Assembly: GCA_019359715.1 (NCBI GenBank)
Contig: JAHHGS010000011.1
Coordinates: 62,001 to 126,000 of the forward strand
Direction of reading: 5' to 3'
Length of the DNA: 64,000 nucleotides
Origin: Aphanocapsa sp. GSE-SYN-MK-11-07L
GTDB taxonomy: Bacteria > Cyanobacteriota > Cyanobacteriia > Thermosynechococcales > Thermosynechococcaceae
A program made the translations under genes and the position numbers. The notes beneath the pieces are model-generated. The model was not told where the DNA came from. It saw only the letters and a program-made list of their open reading frames with translations, and made no database searches. Below are positions 792-17,783 of this stretch, in pieces (within the stretch, counting starts at the first letter, position 1; each line of letters opens with the position of its first letter).

Positions 792-2561
792 ATGTCGGGA
801 TTTCGGCGAGCGATCGCAGCAGTCATAGCATTAATAACGGCGATCGCCCTGACGGGCTGTAGCTTTGACCAATTGCGAGTGCAGGCGGCCCAAGTGCCAA
901 CCTTGGTTTTAAGCAGCCTCTCTGACCCCAAAACCTTTAACACTGTGGTTAGCCAAGAACAGAGTGAGGTGTTTGGGTTAATCGAAGAAGGTCTGATTAG
1001 CCAGAATGGGATCACAGGTGAAATTGAGCCTGCCTTAGCGGAATCGTGGCAGTTTTCTGCCGACAAAAAAACGATTACCTATACGCTGCGGCCAGGGTTG
1101 AAGTGGTCAGATGGCGAACCCCTGACGGTTGACGATGTGGTTTTTACTTACAACGATGTTTATCTGAATGAAAACATTCCTTCTGATGCAAGAGATGTGC
1201 TGCGAATCGGCAGGGAAGGAAAATTTCCTAGCGTTAAAAAGCTCGATCAGCGACGGGTCGAGTTTACAATTCCCGAACCCTTTGCACCTTTTTTAAGAAT
1301 CACAGGCATTGGGATTTTGCCTGAGCACATTCTGCGATCGGCAGTTACGACCAAGGATTCAAAGGGTCGAGTCAAATTCATCGCCATGTGGGGGGTTGAT
1401 ACTAATCCAGCCGAAATTGTCGTGCCTGGCCCGTTTATGATTGAGAGCTACACCACAGGTCAACGGGTGATTCTCCGGCGCAACCCCTACTACTGGCGTA
1501 GAGATCAACAGGGAAATGCTCTGCCCTACATTCAACGAATTGTCTTACAGATTGTTGAAAATCTAGACACCCAACTGTTGCAGTTTCGTTCCGGCGGATT
1601 AGATGAAGTTGATGTATCACCGTCCTATTTTTCATTGCTGAAGGCAGAAGAGAAACGCGATCGGTTCACAATTTATGATGGCGGGCCGGCCCTCACCCAA
1701 TCTTTTATCTCCTTTAATTTGAACAAAGGGCGACGGCAAAATGGTCAACCCCTGGTTAACCCAATCAAGTCAGCTTGGTTTAATAACTTGGCCTTTCGGC
1801 GGGCGATCGCCCATGCCATCGATCGCCAGCAAATGCTCAACAACATCTATCAAGGTCTAGGGGAACCGCAAAACTCAACGATTGCGATTCAAAGCCCCTA
1901 TTACCTTTCGCCTCAACAGGGGCTAAAGGTGTATGACTATGACCCCAAAAGAGCCAAAGAACTCTTGCAAGCGGCAGGCTTTCAATACAACTCCCGTCAG
2001 CAACTCCTCGACGCAGAGGGCAACCGAGTCCGGTTTACGCTGATTACAAATGCTGGCAACAAGATTCGGGAAGCCATGGGGGCCCAAATTAAACTGGATT
2101 TAGCCCAAATTGGCATTCAGGTGGACTTTAACCCGATCGCTTTCAATACCTTAGTTGAAAAAATCACCGCAGGCCTGGACTGGGAATGCTACCTGCTGGG
2201 GTTTGCTGGGGGTGGGATTGAGCCGAACGGTGGAGCAAATACTTGGCTGCCAAACGGCGGGCTACACGCTTTTAACCTCAAGCCTCGCCCAGGGCAACCG
2301 CCCCTGATTGGGCGGGTGGTTTCAGACTGGGAGCAGCAGATTGGCGAGCTTTACATTCGGGGCGCACAGGAACTTGATGAGACGAAGCGGAAAGCGATTT
2401 ATGCCGAAGCTCAACAGTTGATTCAAGAGAATCTACCGATGATTTATTTGATTAATCCGCTGGCTTTGCAGGCTGTGCGCGATCGCATTCAAGGAGTTCA
2501 GTTTTCAGCCTTGGGCGGCGCTCTTTGGAATATCTATGAGTTAAAACTAGCCGCAGATTAG
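792..2561 (+). CDS. ABC transporter substrate-binding lipoprotein, family 5 (oligopeptide/dipeptide type)
   Basis: A 589-residue extracytoplasmic solute-binding protein of the DppA/OppA family (SBP_bac_5). The N terminus is a lipoprotein signal with a lipobox L20-T-G-C23, so it should be anchored in the periplasm through Cys23. Family hallmarks are visible: an early EGLI segment, 'YTLRPGLKWSDGEPL' near residue 97, and 'FRRAIAHAIDRQQ' near residue 337. Family members deliver peptides, nickel or similar ligands to a two-permease, two-ATPase importer. No permease genes are present here; the matching double ATPase may be the protein at 49648-51294. Ligand unknown. Confidence 0.93.
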   Translation: MSGFRRAIAAVIALITAIALTGCSFDQLRVQAAQVPTLVLSSLSDPKTFNTVVSQEQSEVFGLIEEGLISQNGITGEIEPALAESWQFSADKKTITYTLRPGLKWSDGEPLTVDDVVFTYNDVYLNENIPSDARDVLRIGREGKFPSVKKLDQRRVEFTIPEPFAPFLRITGIGILPEHILRSAVTTKDSKGRVKFIAMWGVDTNPAEIVVPGPFMIESYTTGQRVILRRNPYYWRRDQQGNALPYIQRIVLQIVENLDTQLLQFRSGGLDEVDVSPSYFSLLKAEEKRDRFTIYDGGPALTQSFISFNLNKGRRQNGQPLVNPIKSAWFNNLAFRRAIAHAIDRQQMLNNIYQGLGEPQNSTIAIQSPYYLSPQQGLKVYDYDPKRAKELLQAAGFQYNSRQQLLDAEGNRVRFTLITNAGNKIREAMGAQIKLDLAQIGIQVDFNPIAFNTLVEKITAGLDWECYLLGFAGGGIEPNGGANTWLPNGGLHAFNLKPRPGQPPLIGRVVSDWEQQIGELYIRGAQELDETKRKAIYAEAQQLIQENLPMIYLINPLALQAVRDRIQGVQFSALGGALWNIYELKLAAD

Positions 2562-2683
2562 TATTCAGGCCCAGCTTGGGGGCAACTCCCCAGAAATCAG
2601 CGGGGTATCACCCTGTCGGGACTTCATCGACAAACGTAAAAATAGATACAAGATACATAAGAACTGGCTAGGTTAGAAGTCCT

Positions 2684-3073
2684 ATGGATTACCTCTACTA
2701 CTTGGGAAATGCTAGCTTAACTCTCCGAGTTGTGCAGTATCTCAATCGGCATCAAACGTTTCCGATCAGCTTCATCACCGTGATTCACCAAGTTGATGGC
2801 TGGGTGGTGCGAGTCAAGATGTCCCAAAAACTTACTCCGCAGCAGGCGGGAGATTTTCATGCCTTCATGAGTGAGTTGGGCGTTGCCTATCAGCCAGGGA
2901 TTCCGCTCAAGATGGCTTTGTGGGCTTTAGAAACTGGGCAACCGATTGTGGAAGTCATGCAGCGCTACCAAACGGCAATTGTTTCCCACGGCTGTCCGGA
3001 TCGGACTGAAATTGAAGAGTTCCGCGAACAATTTATCCAGGGTTTAGGCTACTGCCCCGAAACGCTGGCTTGA
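2684..3073 (+). CDS. Hypothetical cyanobacterial protein
   Basis: A 129-residue soluble protein that I cannot assign to a named family. It begins at the ATG at 2684; no strong ribosome site is seen. The sequence has alternating strand and helix character, with 'WVVRVKMSQKLTPQQAGDF' in the middle, but no catalytic motif. It lies alone on the + strand between the binding lipoprotein and a strong terminator at 3126-3166, so it ends its transcription unit. Confidence 0.6.
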   Translation: MDYLYYLGNASLTLRVVQYLNRHQTFPISFITVIHQVDGWVVRVKMSQKLTPQQAGDFHAFMSELGVAYQPGIPLKMALWALETGQPIVEVMQRYQTAIVSHGCPDRTEIEEFREQFIQGLGYCPETLA

Positions 3074-3125
3074 TTTTTATAGCCCCTTGCGATTTAATCC
3101 ATTAGTTTTTTAATCCATTTTTAAA

Positions 3126-3166
3126 TAAAGCTTGAAAGCCTCGCAGTGCGAGGCTTTCAAGCTTTA
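3126..3166. terminator. Bidirectional terminator hairpin
   Basis: A perfect inverted repeat with 20-base arms (3126-3145 and 3147-3166) around a single G, folding with a minimal loop at the centre. It ends in TTT on the + strand and reads the same on the minus strand. It sits between two convergent genes, the + strand gene ending at 3073 and the ABC ATPase gene ending at 3262, and can end transcription from both sides. Confidence 0.8.
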
Positions 3167-3261
3167 AACGGTGTTTAATCCACGTCAGGATTGCGATCGC
3201 CAGCCTTCGTTCAACAATTTATTCAGGCCACCAGAGTCGATTTTGGGCGTCTGGTTGCTCA

Positions 3262-4356
3262 CTATCGAACGATGGCTCCGGTGCTGGCATCAAAAACGAG
3301 CAAAGCATTCAGATCAAAACCCAAGGTTAAGCGATCGCCAATCTGAGGATAGATTTCGGTTTTAGTGGTCAAGTTGAGGATTTGATCAGAATTGGGCAAG
3401 ACAACCCGCAGCATATTTTCCCGCCCCAGCGGCTCCACTAACTGGGCGATCGTCTCTAGTGTGGCGGTTGTTTGATCTGGTTCAGAACTGGAGATCACCT
3501 GTAAATACTCAGGGCGAATGCCCAAATCGAAGGAATGCCCCTGGGCCGAGTTGAGCAACGGAATCAGCCGAGCCGGGCAAGGCAGACGTTGCCCTTGGAT
3601 ATAAAAGCTGCCTGCGTCATAGACAGCTTGCAGTAAATTCATCGGTGGGTGCCCTAGAAAACAGGCCACCATCCGATTAACTGGCTGGTTATAAATCTGC
3701 TGGGGGCTGCCAATTTGCTGAATTTGTCCCCGCGACAAAACAACAATTTTGTCCGCTAGAGTCATTGCCTCCATTTGATCGTGGGTGACATAGATGGTGG
3801 TAATGCCAATTCTTTGATGCAGTTGCTTTAGTTCAGCCCTGGTTTCATCCCGCAGTTGGGCATCCAGGTTCGACAGCGGTTCATCCAGCAAGAAAACTTG
3901 TGGTGAACGGGCGATCGCCCTCCCTAAAGCCACCCGCTGCTGTTGCCCACCGGAAAGCTGCTTCGGTTTGCGCTGTAGCAAATGGGCAATATCTAAAGAC
4001 TTGGCAACAGATTGAACCTGCGCTTGAATCGTGGCTGCGTCAGCTTGCCGCATCTGTAAGCCAAAGCCCAGATTTTCGGCCACCGTCATGTGGGGATAGA
4101 GGGCATAGTTTTGAAACACCATTGCCACATCCCGCTGCCGGGCAGGCACTTGGTTAACAAGCCGATCGCCGATGTAGAGGTTGCCTGTAGTTGGTGCGTC
4201 TAAACCAGCAATCATTCTCAATATGGTTGATTTTCCGCAGCCAGAGGGGCCAACCAGCACCCAAAACTCACCGTCTGGGATTTCAAAGCTAATCTCCTCA
4301 ACAGCAGTGGTTGATTCAAATTTGCGGGCAACTCGTTCTAAACAGACTCTGGCCAT
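3262..4356 (-). CDS. ABC transporter ATP-binding protein, sugar type (MalK/UgpC family)
   Basis: A 364-residue ATPase subunit of a carbohydrate importer. Walker A GPSGCGKST is at residues 36-44, the signature LSGGQ at 134-138 and Walker B VFLLDEP at 154-160, followed by the H-loop 'YVTHDQMEA'. The C-terminal third is the TOBE/MalK-like regulatory region, giving the usual full length for UgpC/MsmK proteins. Such ATPases often serve several sugar permeases and are encoded away from them; no permease or sugar-binding gene is adjacent. It is transcribed toward the terminator at 3126-3166, divergently from the glycosyltransferase operon. Confidence 0.93.
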   Translation of the reverse strand: MARVCLERVARKFESTTAVEEISFEIPDGEFWVLVGPSGCGKSTILRMIAGLDAPTTGNLYIGDRLVNQVPARQRDVAMVFQNYALYPHMTVAENLGFGLQMRQADAATIQAQVQSVAKSLDIAHLLQRKPKQLSGGQQQRVALGRAIARSPQVFLLDEPLSNLDAQLRDETRAELKQLHQRIGITTIYVTHDQMEAMTLADKIVVLSRGQIQQIGSPQQIYNQPVNRMVACFLGHPPMNLLQAVYDAGSFYIQGQRLPCPARLIPLLNSAQGHSFDLGIRPEYLQVISSSEPDQTTATLETIAQLVEPLGRENMLRVVLPNSDQILNLTTKTEIYPQIGDRLTLGFDLNALLVFDASTGAIVR

Positions 4357-12742: not shown

Positions 12743-14527
12743 ATGGCTAATGTTGTCAGTCAGTCGAATCAATTGCTTGCGATCGCGCTCTCATTAACGA
12801 GCTTCGATATTCTTTTAATTGTCTTGATTCTACTCGGCATTGTCTCGGCCGATTGGCTGCTGGGCGTTAGCTTTCGGCGATCGCGGCGTTGGCTTGCCAC
12901 TCGGGCGACCGATCAGCAGCGCCATTGGTTAGACCTGGCGTGGAGTTTTTTATACGTTGGGGTTAGGCTGCTGCTGTGGGCCGGGGTCTTAGCTTGGGGC
13001 ATCATCGTTGTGCCAGGGCTAGACCCCTTAGAGCACATCATGCTTGAGGCGGCCTTGGAACTGGCCAAAATTGGGATTAAGCTGCGCGACGTTTCCTTGC
13101 TGACCCTTGATCGGAAACCCGTCACGCTGGGCAATCTGTTGCTGTTTGTGGCGGTTGCCCTGGGGATGCTCTTGCTCTCGCGTTGGCTGAGTGGCTGGAT
13201 TAAACGGCGGATTTTGTCGCGGCTGCGCCTTGATCGGGGCACACAAGAAGCGATCGCCTCGGTGATTGGCTATCTGCTGGCTGCCCTCAGCTTTATTATT
13301 GTGCTCCAAACGGTGGGGATTGACCTCAGCTCCTTGGCCGTGATTGCTGGTGTATTGGGAATTGGATTTGGGTTTGGCTTCCAGCTTTTGGCCAGTAACT
13401 TTATCAGCGGCTTGGCAATTTTGCTAGAGCAGCCGATTAAAGTTGGCGATTTTATTGAAGTTGACGGACTGCTCGGTACCGTAGAAAAGGTTGCCATTCG
13501 CTCCACTGTCATTCGCACGAATGATGGGCTGTTTGTGATTGTGCCTAACAATCGCTTTATTGAAAAAAATGTCGTCAACTGGAGCTATCGCAACCCGAAT
13601 AGCCGGATTCACATCCCGGTCACGGTTGCCTACGGCAGCGATACGGTGTTGGTGACAGAAGCCTTACTGGCAGCCGCCCGCCAAGATGCGCGGGTGCTGG
13701 TGTATCCGTCGCCCAGCGTTTGGTTCAAGCGATTTGCCGAAAGCGCCTATGAGTTTGAACTCCTGGTCTGGATCAATCGTCCCCAGGATTTTGACCCGAT
13801 TAAAAGTGCCCTCAATTTTTTGATTGAGCACGAATTGCGGCAGCGCGGAATCGAAATGCCATTCCCACAACGAGAGCTACACATCCGCAACCCCACCGCC
13901 CTGCGCCAGCTTTTGCAGCCCGATCAGCCTAGCCAAACCAGTGAGCTTGCCGACTCTAGCCATTTTCCCCGCCAGCGATCGCCGATTGATGCCCGTCAGC
14001 AAACCCTCAGCTCAATGCTGCGGCAGGTGATTTATTTTGAACAATGCTCTGACTCAGAGCTACGAATGTTGATTGAGCGGGGCTATCAAAAGTTCTTTCT
14101 GGCTCGGCAGGTAATTTTTCGGGAAAAAGAGGCGGGAAATACTTTTTACATCATCCTTTCAGGGGCAGTCGAAGTATTCTCAGAGCAGCTAGAGCAAGCA
14201 AATACAACCCGCAACAATCCGACTGGCGTGATTGCCATCCTCAGCACTGGCGATTTTTTTGGTGAAATCTCTTTGCTAACCGGCTTGCCACGCTCTGCCA
14301 CAATTCGAGCCAAAGAAGACACAACCTTGTTTGTAGTTGACCACAATGCCCTGCAAGTGCTGCTGCAAGAGCACAGGGGATTAGCAGAAACGATCGCTAC
14401 CGCCCTTGTCCAGCGTCAGCAAGTCCTCCAAGACTTAGGACTCCTCGAACAAGCTCACCTCGATACCAATCAAGAAACCGCCCTCGACTGGATTCGCGAT
14501 CGGATTAACACCCTCTTCGGCCTTTAG
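12743..14527 (+). CDS. MscS-family channel with C-terminal cyclic-nucleotide-binding domain
   Basis: A 594-residue inner-membrane protein. Several hydrophobic segments cover residues 8-220; the MscS pore helix and beta domain follow, with 'GVLGIGFGFGFQLLASNFI' around residue 200 and 'VGDFIEVDGLLGTVEKV'. From residue 424 a cyclic-nucleotide-binding domain follows, with the phosphate-binding cassette FGEISLLTGLPRSATIRA near residue 506. This is the bCNG-type architecture, where ligand binding rather than tension may gate the pore. The conserved E and R of the cassette suggest that it can bind cAMP or cGMP. Confidence 0.93.
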   Translation: MANVVSQSNQLLAIALSLTSFDILLIVLILLGIVSADWLLGVSFRRSRRWLATRATDQQRHWLDLAWSFLYVGVRLLLWAGVLAWGIIVVPGLDPLEHIMLEAALELAKIGIKLRDVSLLTLDRKPVTLGNLLLFVAVALGMLLLSRWLSGWIKRRILSRLRLDRGTQEAIASVIGYLLAALSFIIVLQTVGIDLSSLAVIAGVLGIGFGFGFQLLASNFISGLAILLEQPIKVGDFIEVDGLLGTVEKVAIRSTVIRTNDGLFVIVPNNRFIEKNVVNWSYRNPNSRIHIPVTVAYGSDTVLVTEALLAAARQDARVLVYPSPSVWFKRFAESAYEFELLVWINRPQDFDPIKSALNFLIEHELRQRGIEMPFPQRELHIRNPTALRQLLQPDQPSQTSELADSSHFPRQRSPIDARQQTLSSMLRQVIYFEQCSDSELRMLIERGYQKFFLARQVIFREKEAGNTFYIILSGAVEVFSEQLEQANTTRNNPTGVIAILSTGDFFGEISLLTGLPRSATIRAKEDTTLFVVDHNALQVLLQEHRGLAETIATALVQRQQVLQDLGLLEQAHLDTNQETALDWIRDRINTLFGL

Positions 14528-15957: not shown

Positions 15958-15988
15958 TTAAGCACGATCCAATCTGGATCGTGCTTAA
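15958..15988 (-). terminator. Terminator hairpin containing the hydrolase stop codon
   Basis: Perfect 13-base arms (15958-15970 and 15976-15988) around a five-base loop. On the minus strand it lies at the very end of the hydrolase gene: the TAA stop (15985-15987) is part of the stem. A translating ribosome would therefore cover the hairpin until release. No long T-run follows. Confidence 0.6.
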
Positions 15989-17019
15989 ACGGGGTGGTCT
16001 AAGTCCGCAGCCGTTTCTTCTAGAATAATTCGGCTGGGGCAAAGCGCTTGAACGAGGGGGCTAGTTTGCCAATTTTGAGTCAGCAGGAGGCTGATTAATT
16101 TGGCAGATCGATCGCTGGCCGGGGTATCTAGTAGCCCCAGATAGAGGCTAGCACTGTGATAGCTATTGTTATTGATGCTGCCCAATAGCTGACTGGAATT
16201 GTCTAACAGGTTTTTGAGCTGACTTTGCAAATTGTTCCACAAGCCAACATTTCGCAGATTGCTCAGGGACTCCGCCACGACATCTTGGCGATGCTGAATC
16301 AGCACGGTTTGCGATCGCATCGCCACGGGCAAGTCAGCAAACAGAATCACTGGCCCATAGCCAATCAGTCGGATTTGGTTGACCCAATGATCGTAGTCGC
16401 CAAAAAACCGCTGCAAAATGTGGAGGGCGATCGCGGCAATAATTGTGCCCTGGCTATGGGCAACCACAAAAATTTCAGCTCCGGCTCGAATGCCTTTGAT
16501 CATTTCATAGGCTAGGCGGAGAGTCGGGCGGGGGGCACTAGCCGGATAGCTGCCGTAAAAATAAGTTTCAAACTCTGCCCAACCCATTTTCTGGATAAAG
16601 GGCAAGCGGCGAATCAGTTCGGGGTCTAAGGACATTGGTGGCGCTAAATCGGTTACTGCCGTTAGAACATCGATGGCTGGATTTAAATCGAGCTGGCATA
16701 ACTGCTTGAGTAAATCAGCATAGCTTTGCAGCCGAGCCTGACTCTCAGGGGTTTGATGCTCCGGCCAAAATCGAAACAGTTCAGCTTTGCCGATTAGGCT
16801 TTCTAGCAAATCTGATTGAAAACCATTGGTGCTATTGTGAATACCAATCACATCAAACGGTTGCTCTAGGGTCAGCCAAACCAGAGATTCTAAATCTCGC
16901 TGCTGATTTTCAATTGGACTTGTCACCCCATTTATGTGCAGAAGCAGCTTCGGGCGACCCGCTGGCTGAGCGGCGGGGTAATAAATCAGGTGCCCGTCTT
17001 GCTGTTGTTCGGTTGCCAT
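15985..17019 (-). CDS. Alpha/beta-hydrolase-like (lipase-type) protein
   Basis: A 344-residue soluble protein with a lipase-like nucleophile elbow, 'EIFVVAHSQGTIIAAIALHIL', giving the G/A-H-S-Q-G motif around the presumed catalytic serine. An N-terminal 'LLLHINGVTSPIENQQRDL' strand-loop could form the oxyanion region. Otherwise it is unlike named families; a role in lipid or ester hydrolysis is inferred from this motif only. The ATG at 17019 is preferred over TTG at 17025. A CRP-type palindrome lies 29 bases upstream (17048-17063). Confidence 0.7.
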   Translation of the reverse strand: MATEQQQDGHLIYYPAAQPAGRPKLLLHINGVTSPIENQQRDLESLVWLTLEQPFDVIGIHNSTNGFQSDLLESLIGKAELFRFWPEHQTPESQARLQSYADLLKQLCQLDLNPAIDVLTAVTDLAPPMSLDPELIRRLPFIQKMGWAEFETYFYGSYPASAPRPTLRLAYEMIKGIRAGAEIFVVAHSQGTIIAAIALHILQRFFGDYDHWVNQIRLIGYGPVILFADLPVAMRSQTVLIQHRQDVVAESLSNLRNVGLWNNLQSQLKNLLDNSSQLLGSINNNSYHSASLYLGLLDTPASDRSAKLISLLLTQNWQTSPLVQALCPSRIILEETAADLDHPV

Positions 17020-17047
17020 ACTCAATCCGATAAAAAATTTTCTAACT

Positions 17048-17063
17048 TGTGATCCATATCACG
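17048..17063. promoter_or_regulatory. CRP/SyCRP1-type binding site
   Basis: TGTGA (17048-17052), six bases, then TCAC (17059-17062): TGTGATCCATATCACG matches the TGTGA-N6-TCACA consensus of CRP and the known cyanobacterial SyCRP1 sites in nine of ten positions. It lies 29 bases upstream of the minus-strand hydrolase start, and its centre is about 60 bases before a likely start point of a + strand transcript (see next entries), the spacing used in class I activation. Confidence 0.6.
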
Positions 17064-17103
17064 GAGTCCAGGGAGCGAACCATGCATACTGAAGAAGACT
17101 CAG

Positions 17104-17177
17104 TATTATCCGAGTCATCAACAGGGAACACACAACGAGCCGGCAGACTGTATTGTTTGTCGGTTTTTTTTGTTTAA
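17104..17177 (+). ncRNA. Candidate small RNA with intrinsic terminator
   Basis: Between two minus-strand genes there is a + strand intrinsic terminator that neither gene needs. A TATTAT -10-like box is at 17104-17109; transcription from about 17116 would give a ~57-nt RNA ending in a nine-pair stem (17140-17148 with 17155-17163, two G-U pairs) and eight T. An unpaired ACAGGGAACACACAACG segment precedes the stem. It does not contain the ACTCCTCACAC core of Yfr1. A 31-codon ORF (17082-17177) also spans it but runs through the terminator. Confidence 0.45.
17140..17171 (+). terminator. Rho-independent terminator on + strand
   Basis: Stem ccggcagac/gtttgtcgg with a six-base loop, followed directly by eight T (17164-17171). 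Orientation is + although both flanking genes are on the minus strand, which is the main evidence for a transcript in this spacer. Confidence 0.7.
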
Positions 17178-17183
17178 ATTTAC

Positions 17184-17783
17184 CTAGCGCATGGTGCCCA
17201 TTGTGTGTTTCCAGGCCAACTCCTTGCTCAGCACCGCCAAAGCTCGGCGATCGCTGCTGCCAAACAGCGGGCTAATCTCCTCTAGAACCTGAGCCATGAG
17301 CTGAGACGCAAAGGCTCCCCCCGCATTTAGCAGATGGCTGTAGTAGCAAAACTGGGGCTGCTGCTGTTCATTCAGATGAAAAGCATGCACCTCTTGTTCC
17401 GTCATTGTCCAGACTGGCGTATTCGCTGGCACAACAATCCGGGGAATTCCCTGCTGCCCATACCAAGCTTGCCCTTGCTTATCGAGGGTGCCAATTAACA
17501 CCGTCCAGAGCAGCGTCCGAGTTTCACTGATTAAATCTGGCGTGAACAGCAGGTCTGGCTCACTGGCTAGCCGCGGCCCGGTATTAAAAAACATTGGGTT
17601 GAAAAGCTGTGAGTTATAAATTAACCCGACCGCCCAGTGGCGATCGGCGGTTTCCAGTTTGACAAAACTGCCAAACCCGTAGTCTTCCGGCTGGGGTGGT
17701 TGGTTAACTTCCATCCCATCGTCAACTTGGACGACGTAAACGCAGTGAGAGTCTGATTTAACAACTTTCCCCAGTTTGGTCAT
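17184..17783 (-). CDS. HAS-barrel-like hypothetical protein
   Basis: A 199-residue protein. The first 70 residues ('LGKVVKSDSHCVYVVQV', then 'FGSFVKLETADRHWAVGLIYN') resemble the HAS beta-barrel found at the N terminus of HerA-like ATPases and in stand-alone cyanobacterial proteins. No ATPase domain follows; the remainder is helical. Function unknown. It is encoded 141 bases downstream of the Hsp70-like gene on the same strand, so the two could be one unit. Confidence 0.6.
   Translation of the reverse strand: MTKLGKVVKSDSHCVYVVQVDDGMEVNQPPQPEDYGFGSFVKLETADRHWAVGLIYNSQLFNPMFFNTGPRLASEPDLLFTPDLISETRTLLWTVLIGTLDKQGQAWYGQQGIPRIVVPANTPVWTMTEQEVHAFHLNEQQQPQFCYYSHLLNAGGAFASQLMAQVLEEISPLFGSSDRRALAVLSKELAWKHTMGTMR

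Follow-up and report, generated by a model that had tools for sequence, protein, structure and literature searches.

A conserved candidate small RNA with a predicted CRP-activated promoter in cyanobacteria

CyaR and Spot 42 are CRP-regulated small RNAs (sRNAs) of enterobacteria. The putative RNA described here resembles both in its predicted link to cAMP and in its design: a short intergenic RNA with its own CRP-controlled promoter (predicted here), hairpins, a conserved stretch left unpaired and, at its end, an intrinsic terminator. Unlike CyaR and Spot 42, it is cyanobacterial, and no sequence relation to them was found. The Rfam 15 covariance models gave no match at the element in the window, the whole 64-kb stretch of DNA analysed in this study (E up to 10), and none in six homologs (E up to 1). 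In cyanobacteria, published work connects cAMP-CRP with motility and pili and, in the case of Nostoc, with genes related to nitrogen, by way of protein-coding targets (PMC2633013). The study of the SyCRP1/AnCrpA regulon predicted protein-coding targets, without mention of sRNAs, and the promoters of that regulon have the same palindrome and the same spacing between site and -10 box as the promoter considered here (PMC2633013). Our literature search found no published description of the present RNA or of a CRP-dependent cyanobacterial sRNA.

Three described cyanobacterial RNAs offer further comparisons. Yfr1 and Yfr2 are also short and conserved, with a hairpin, a single-stranded motif and a terminator, and Yfr2 is multicopy, as is the present RNA in its tandem arrays. 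In contrast to the present RNA, Yfr1 carries the motif CACUCCUCACACC and, according to the main text of a survey of Nostoc 7120, is present in every genome analysed, whereas the present RNA occurs in a subset (PMC4734099). That main text does not include the present RNA; the supplementary table of the survey may list its Nostoc homolog without a name (PMC4734099). ApcZ is a cyanobacterial sRNA near an allophycocyanin gene, a location that the present RNA shares in some lineages only (PMC8136909). ApcZ derives from the 3' end of the apc operon (apcC) and is missing in Acaryochloris (PMC8136909), whereas the present RNA is intergenic, has its own predicted promoter and is found in Acaryochloris.

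It is very probable, in our assessment, that the element is a stand-alone sRNA gene with a class II promoter activated by CRP-cAMP, most likely acting by pairing in trans. Judged from its sequence, it probably represents a new family of CRP-activated, trans-acting sRNAs and an unnamed regulator that ties cAMP signalling to gene control. It would belong to a known kind, the intergenic sRNA controlled by a transcription factor, without an Rfam family of its own. A conserved CRP-controlled sRNA would be a direct, testable post-transcriptional branch of cyanobacterial cAMP-CRP regulation.

The CRP-type palindrome TGTGATCCATATCACG (17048-17063, + strand) agrees with TGTGA-N6-TCACA at nine of ten positions. 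An exact TGTGA-N6-TCAC occurs only once in the window, at this place; a lone site per 64 kb is about what chance would give, but chance does not account for its constant position in homologous promoters. A palindrome with at least eight of ten matches precedes the -10 box by 21, 22, 43 or 44 bp in 105 of 117 non-redundant homologous promoters (<85% identical, each with a -10 box), a count that measures conservation and not an independent-sample probability, since the promoters share descent. Shuffled sequences gave a mean of 0.27 and a maximum of 2 at these offsets. The -10 box CATACT (17085-17090, + strand) is conserved as CATACT or CATAAT, with 1.6-2.0 bits of information at its best positions in the homologous promoters. 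It is separated from the end of the palindrome by 21 bp, an offset that is the same in homologs. In published CRP-activated cyanobacterial promoters the -10 box is found ~22 bp downstream of the CRP site (PMC2633013). The fixed spacing of CRP site, -10 box and start fits these promoters and supports a CRP-activated RNA gene. In 100 of 106 homologs, 6 or 7 nt separate the -10 box from the RACTC at the start of the first hairpin, which puts the start at 17097 and the centre of the site (17055.5) at -41.5. These distances predict a class II CRP promoter, from which the RNA would be transcribed by activation rather than repression. An independent argument for a start at 17097 comes from a homolog whose 5' hairpin loop is longer by ~50 nt (L022, 1497-1623, - strand) and in which the closing stem, the core and the CRP-21 bp-(-10)-6 nt-GACTC spacing are all retained. 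With site, -10 box and start nearly invariant in spacing across the 117 promoters, the RNA can be recognised by its promoter architecture.

Two sites are found in most lineages. The distal one, at 43 or 44 bp from the -10 box, is strong; the proximal one, at 21 bp, is degenerate (ATGATTAAGATCGT; consensus ATGATtaaGATCgt). A distance of 22-23 bp thus separates their centres, which lie on the same face of the helix. In the window's lineage the distal site is lost, and the strong palindrome occupies the proximal place. In most lineages the proximal site, which reads ATGAT-N4-ATCGT/C instead of TGTGA-N6-TCACA, may bind CRP weakly or may serve a second member of the CRP family.

The -10 box, the start of the first hairpin and the terminator delimit a predicted RNA of ~75 nt (17097-17171, + strand); the covariance model match in the window spans 17094-17171. 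In the predicted fold, a 5' hairpin (17097-17116) is formed by GACTC (17097-17101) and GAGTC (17112-17116), a helix shortened in Nostocales to three or four pairs. The core ATCAACAGGGAACACACA (17117-17134) is unpaired in the consensus fold, and the 10-mer GGGAACACAC within it (17124-17133) is invariant in alignments of 19 and 20 sequences; the core is likely the pairing region. A Rho-independent terminator follows (17139-17171), with a 10-bp stem (5' arm 17139-17148, 3' arm 17155-17164) and T8 at 17164-17171. RNAalifold gives both helices de novo, without a supplied structure. In an alignment of 111 distinct sequences, both sides vary in 11 of 15 pairs, compared with a shuffled mean of 4.7, and the terminator helix covaries, with such changes in 8 of its 10 pairs; this alignment was fitted to the covariance model and leans towards it, and a MAFFT alignment of 20 sequences agrees.

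The original prediction of a near-perfect SyCRP1-type site and a + strand stem followed by eight T, between two genes on the minus strand, describes the locus correctly. Its proposal of a CRP-controlled + strand sRNA is strongly supported by the conserved unit, the fixed spacing and the varied neighbourhoods, while the promoter, its class and the length of the RNA had to be revised. The TATTAT that had been read as the -10 box is indeed at 17104-17109, but it sits in the loop of the 5' hairpin, and relatives have TACTAT, TGCTAT or CTCTAG there. The class I geometry (-61) gives way to class II, and the ~57-nt RNA to one of ~75 nt.

The unit is widespread in cyanobacteria. When 17026-17183 was used as a DNA query, 31 of 39 relatives matched (E≤1), 26 of them with the full RNA core, and the core was found at high identity even in distantly related genera among these genomes. 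The homologs show the same order in the same orientation: CRP palindrome, CATACT or CATAAT, GACTC hairpin, core and terminator. A covariance search across cyanobacteria, of the kind suggested together with the original prediction, located the RNA with model R1 in 48 of the 386 phylum genomes sampled (E≤0.001); model R2, built from 114 members, found it in exactly the same 48. The carriers include Thermosynechococcaceae, Acaryochloris, Leptolyngbya-type and Nostoc/Calothrix genomes. A pattern scan of named genomes matched at least 115 contigs from dozens of cyanobacterial genera, including Nostoc, Calothrix, Fischerella, Leptolyngbya, Nodosilinea and Acaryochloris. One pattern match, on a contig labelled Acidimicrobiaceae (L089), is without promoter features and is probably due to chance or contamination. 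A search for plasmid and phage copies of the RNA found none. Six loci (L085, L107, L128, L130, L138 and L146) hold between two and five copies in tandem, and every copy has a CRP-type promoter of its own; the array in L146 spans 2030-3319.

Along with site, -10 box, spacing, structure and core, all of which are conserved, a CRP gene is present. The host genome encodes a 249-aa CRP ortholog (L177:1378-2127) with PF00027 and PF13545. Its cyclic-nucleotide domain contains GEMAPLDDVPRST, and its recognition helix, ARETVTRVL, is close to RETVGRIL of E. coli CRP; NtcA is encoded separately (L176). Close CRP orthologs (E≤1e-70) occur in ~109 of the 386 genomes of the phylum, namely in 47 of 48 RNA-positive versus 62 of 338 RNA-negative genomes (Fisher p ~1e-28, not corrected for phylogeny). 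The ~62 genomes with CRP and without the RNA indicate that the RNA is not universal in the CRP regulon. One genome (G137) carries the RNA at 589244-589322 of contig 1 and gave no CRP ortholog at E≤1e-35. Having the RNA without a CRP match, it offers a natural test of CRP dependence.

In the mechanism we propose, a cAMP-bound CRP of the SyCRP1/AnCrpA type, encoded elsewhere in the genome, would bind 17048-17063 and activate the class II promoter through its -10 box CATACT. RNA polymerase would initiate at ~17097 and terminate at ~17171, and the RNA would fold into the 5' hairpin, the accessible core ATCAACAGGGAACACACA and the terminator hairpin. At high cAMP, the core would most likely pair in trans with mRNAs. 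In one 2.59-Mb Thermosynechococcus-like genome (G005), we scanned all start regions for pairing with the core, taking accessibility into account. The core energies in this genome-wide scan were no better than those of shuffled cores, so the top-ranked candidates (the rplA leader, cpcG, a group 2 sigma factor and an HlyD-like gene) are no evidence for targets. The motif is not near rplA among the relatives listed, and an apcD-like mRNA, examined as a target in 10 loci, gave no signal. Relatives also contain near-complete antisense sites, which were considered and rejected. Those checked lie away from start codons, and the one in Thermosynechococcus is inside an ABC-transporter-like ORF, in antisense. 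Because targets were not found above shuffled controls, it is from the architecture alone that we infer action by pairing.

We consider it unlikely, though a reading to be taken seriously, that the RNA is CRP-controlled but works through protein binding or a small peptide instead of mRNA pairing. A protein might recognise the invariant 10-mer as its binding motif, and the scan of G005, which yielded no targets, would fit an action other than pairing. A peptide is contradicted by the sequences themselves: there is no conserved start codon in the RNA (any ATG or GTG occurs in 41 of 119, at differing places), and insertions or deletions between core and terminator disrupt every reading frame. A coding function was rejected on these grounds.

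The gene neighbourhood bears on whether the RNA stands alone. The window has an alpha/beta-hydrolase-like ORF on the left (15985-17025, - strand, start at 17019 or 17025) and an ORF for an unknown 199-aa protein on the right (17184-17783, - strand). These neighbours are typical of the window's family and other genes are found elsewhere; in Nostocales the RNA neighbours purL and a lone allophycocyanin-alpha-like gene, probably apcD. It is very unlikely that the site serves the divergent hydrolase gene, with the + strand stem merely stopping read-through or antisense transcription, even though the hydrolase start is 36 bp from the CRP-type site and 13 loci of the window's family have the hydrolase gene to the left of the RNA. 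The distance between the site and the + strand -10 box stays at 21/22 or 43/44 bp even where the left gene differs, and the invariant core would be left unexplained. A class II promoter directed towards the hydrolase would also place its -10 box on the start codon: the published spacing of ~22 bp between site and -10 box (PMC2633013) puts a minus-strand box at ~17020-17026. The suggestion in the original prediction that the site also acts on the hydrolase gene is for this reason not favoured. CRP at the site may still repress the hydrolase by steric hindrance. It is extremely improbable that the element regulates a downstream + strand gene as its leader or attenuator, since the downstream gene is convergent in at least 101 of 160 loci, the window included, and a strong terminator with a T-run ends nearly every copy, against eight Thermosynechococcus-like loci in which a small + strand gene starts near the terminator. 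The varied neighbours, and the tandem copies with promoters of their own, argue for a stand-alone gene and against either a leader or a hydrolase-specific site.

With the stand-alone sRNA as the preferred reading, a broader role can be put forward tentatively. Somewhat doubtful as yet, it is that an ancient sRNA serves as the main post-transcriptional arm of cAMP-CRP in many cyanobacteria, acting on a conserved set of mRNAs via its invariant 10-base seed, with dosage set by tandem copies with two-site promoters. Tractable strains, for example of Nostoc or Thermosynechococcus, lend themselves to an immediate check of expression, targets and dependence on CRP.

Two further features were seen in this part of the window. 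A near-perfect inverted repeat, AAGCACGATCCA-ATC-TGGATCGTGCTT, without a T-run, is located at the 3' end of the hydrolase gene (15961-15987). An MscS-type mechanosensitive channel with a C-terminal cyclic-nucleotide-binding domain is encoded at 12743-14527 on the + strand, ~2.5 kb from the RNA.
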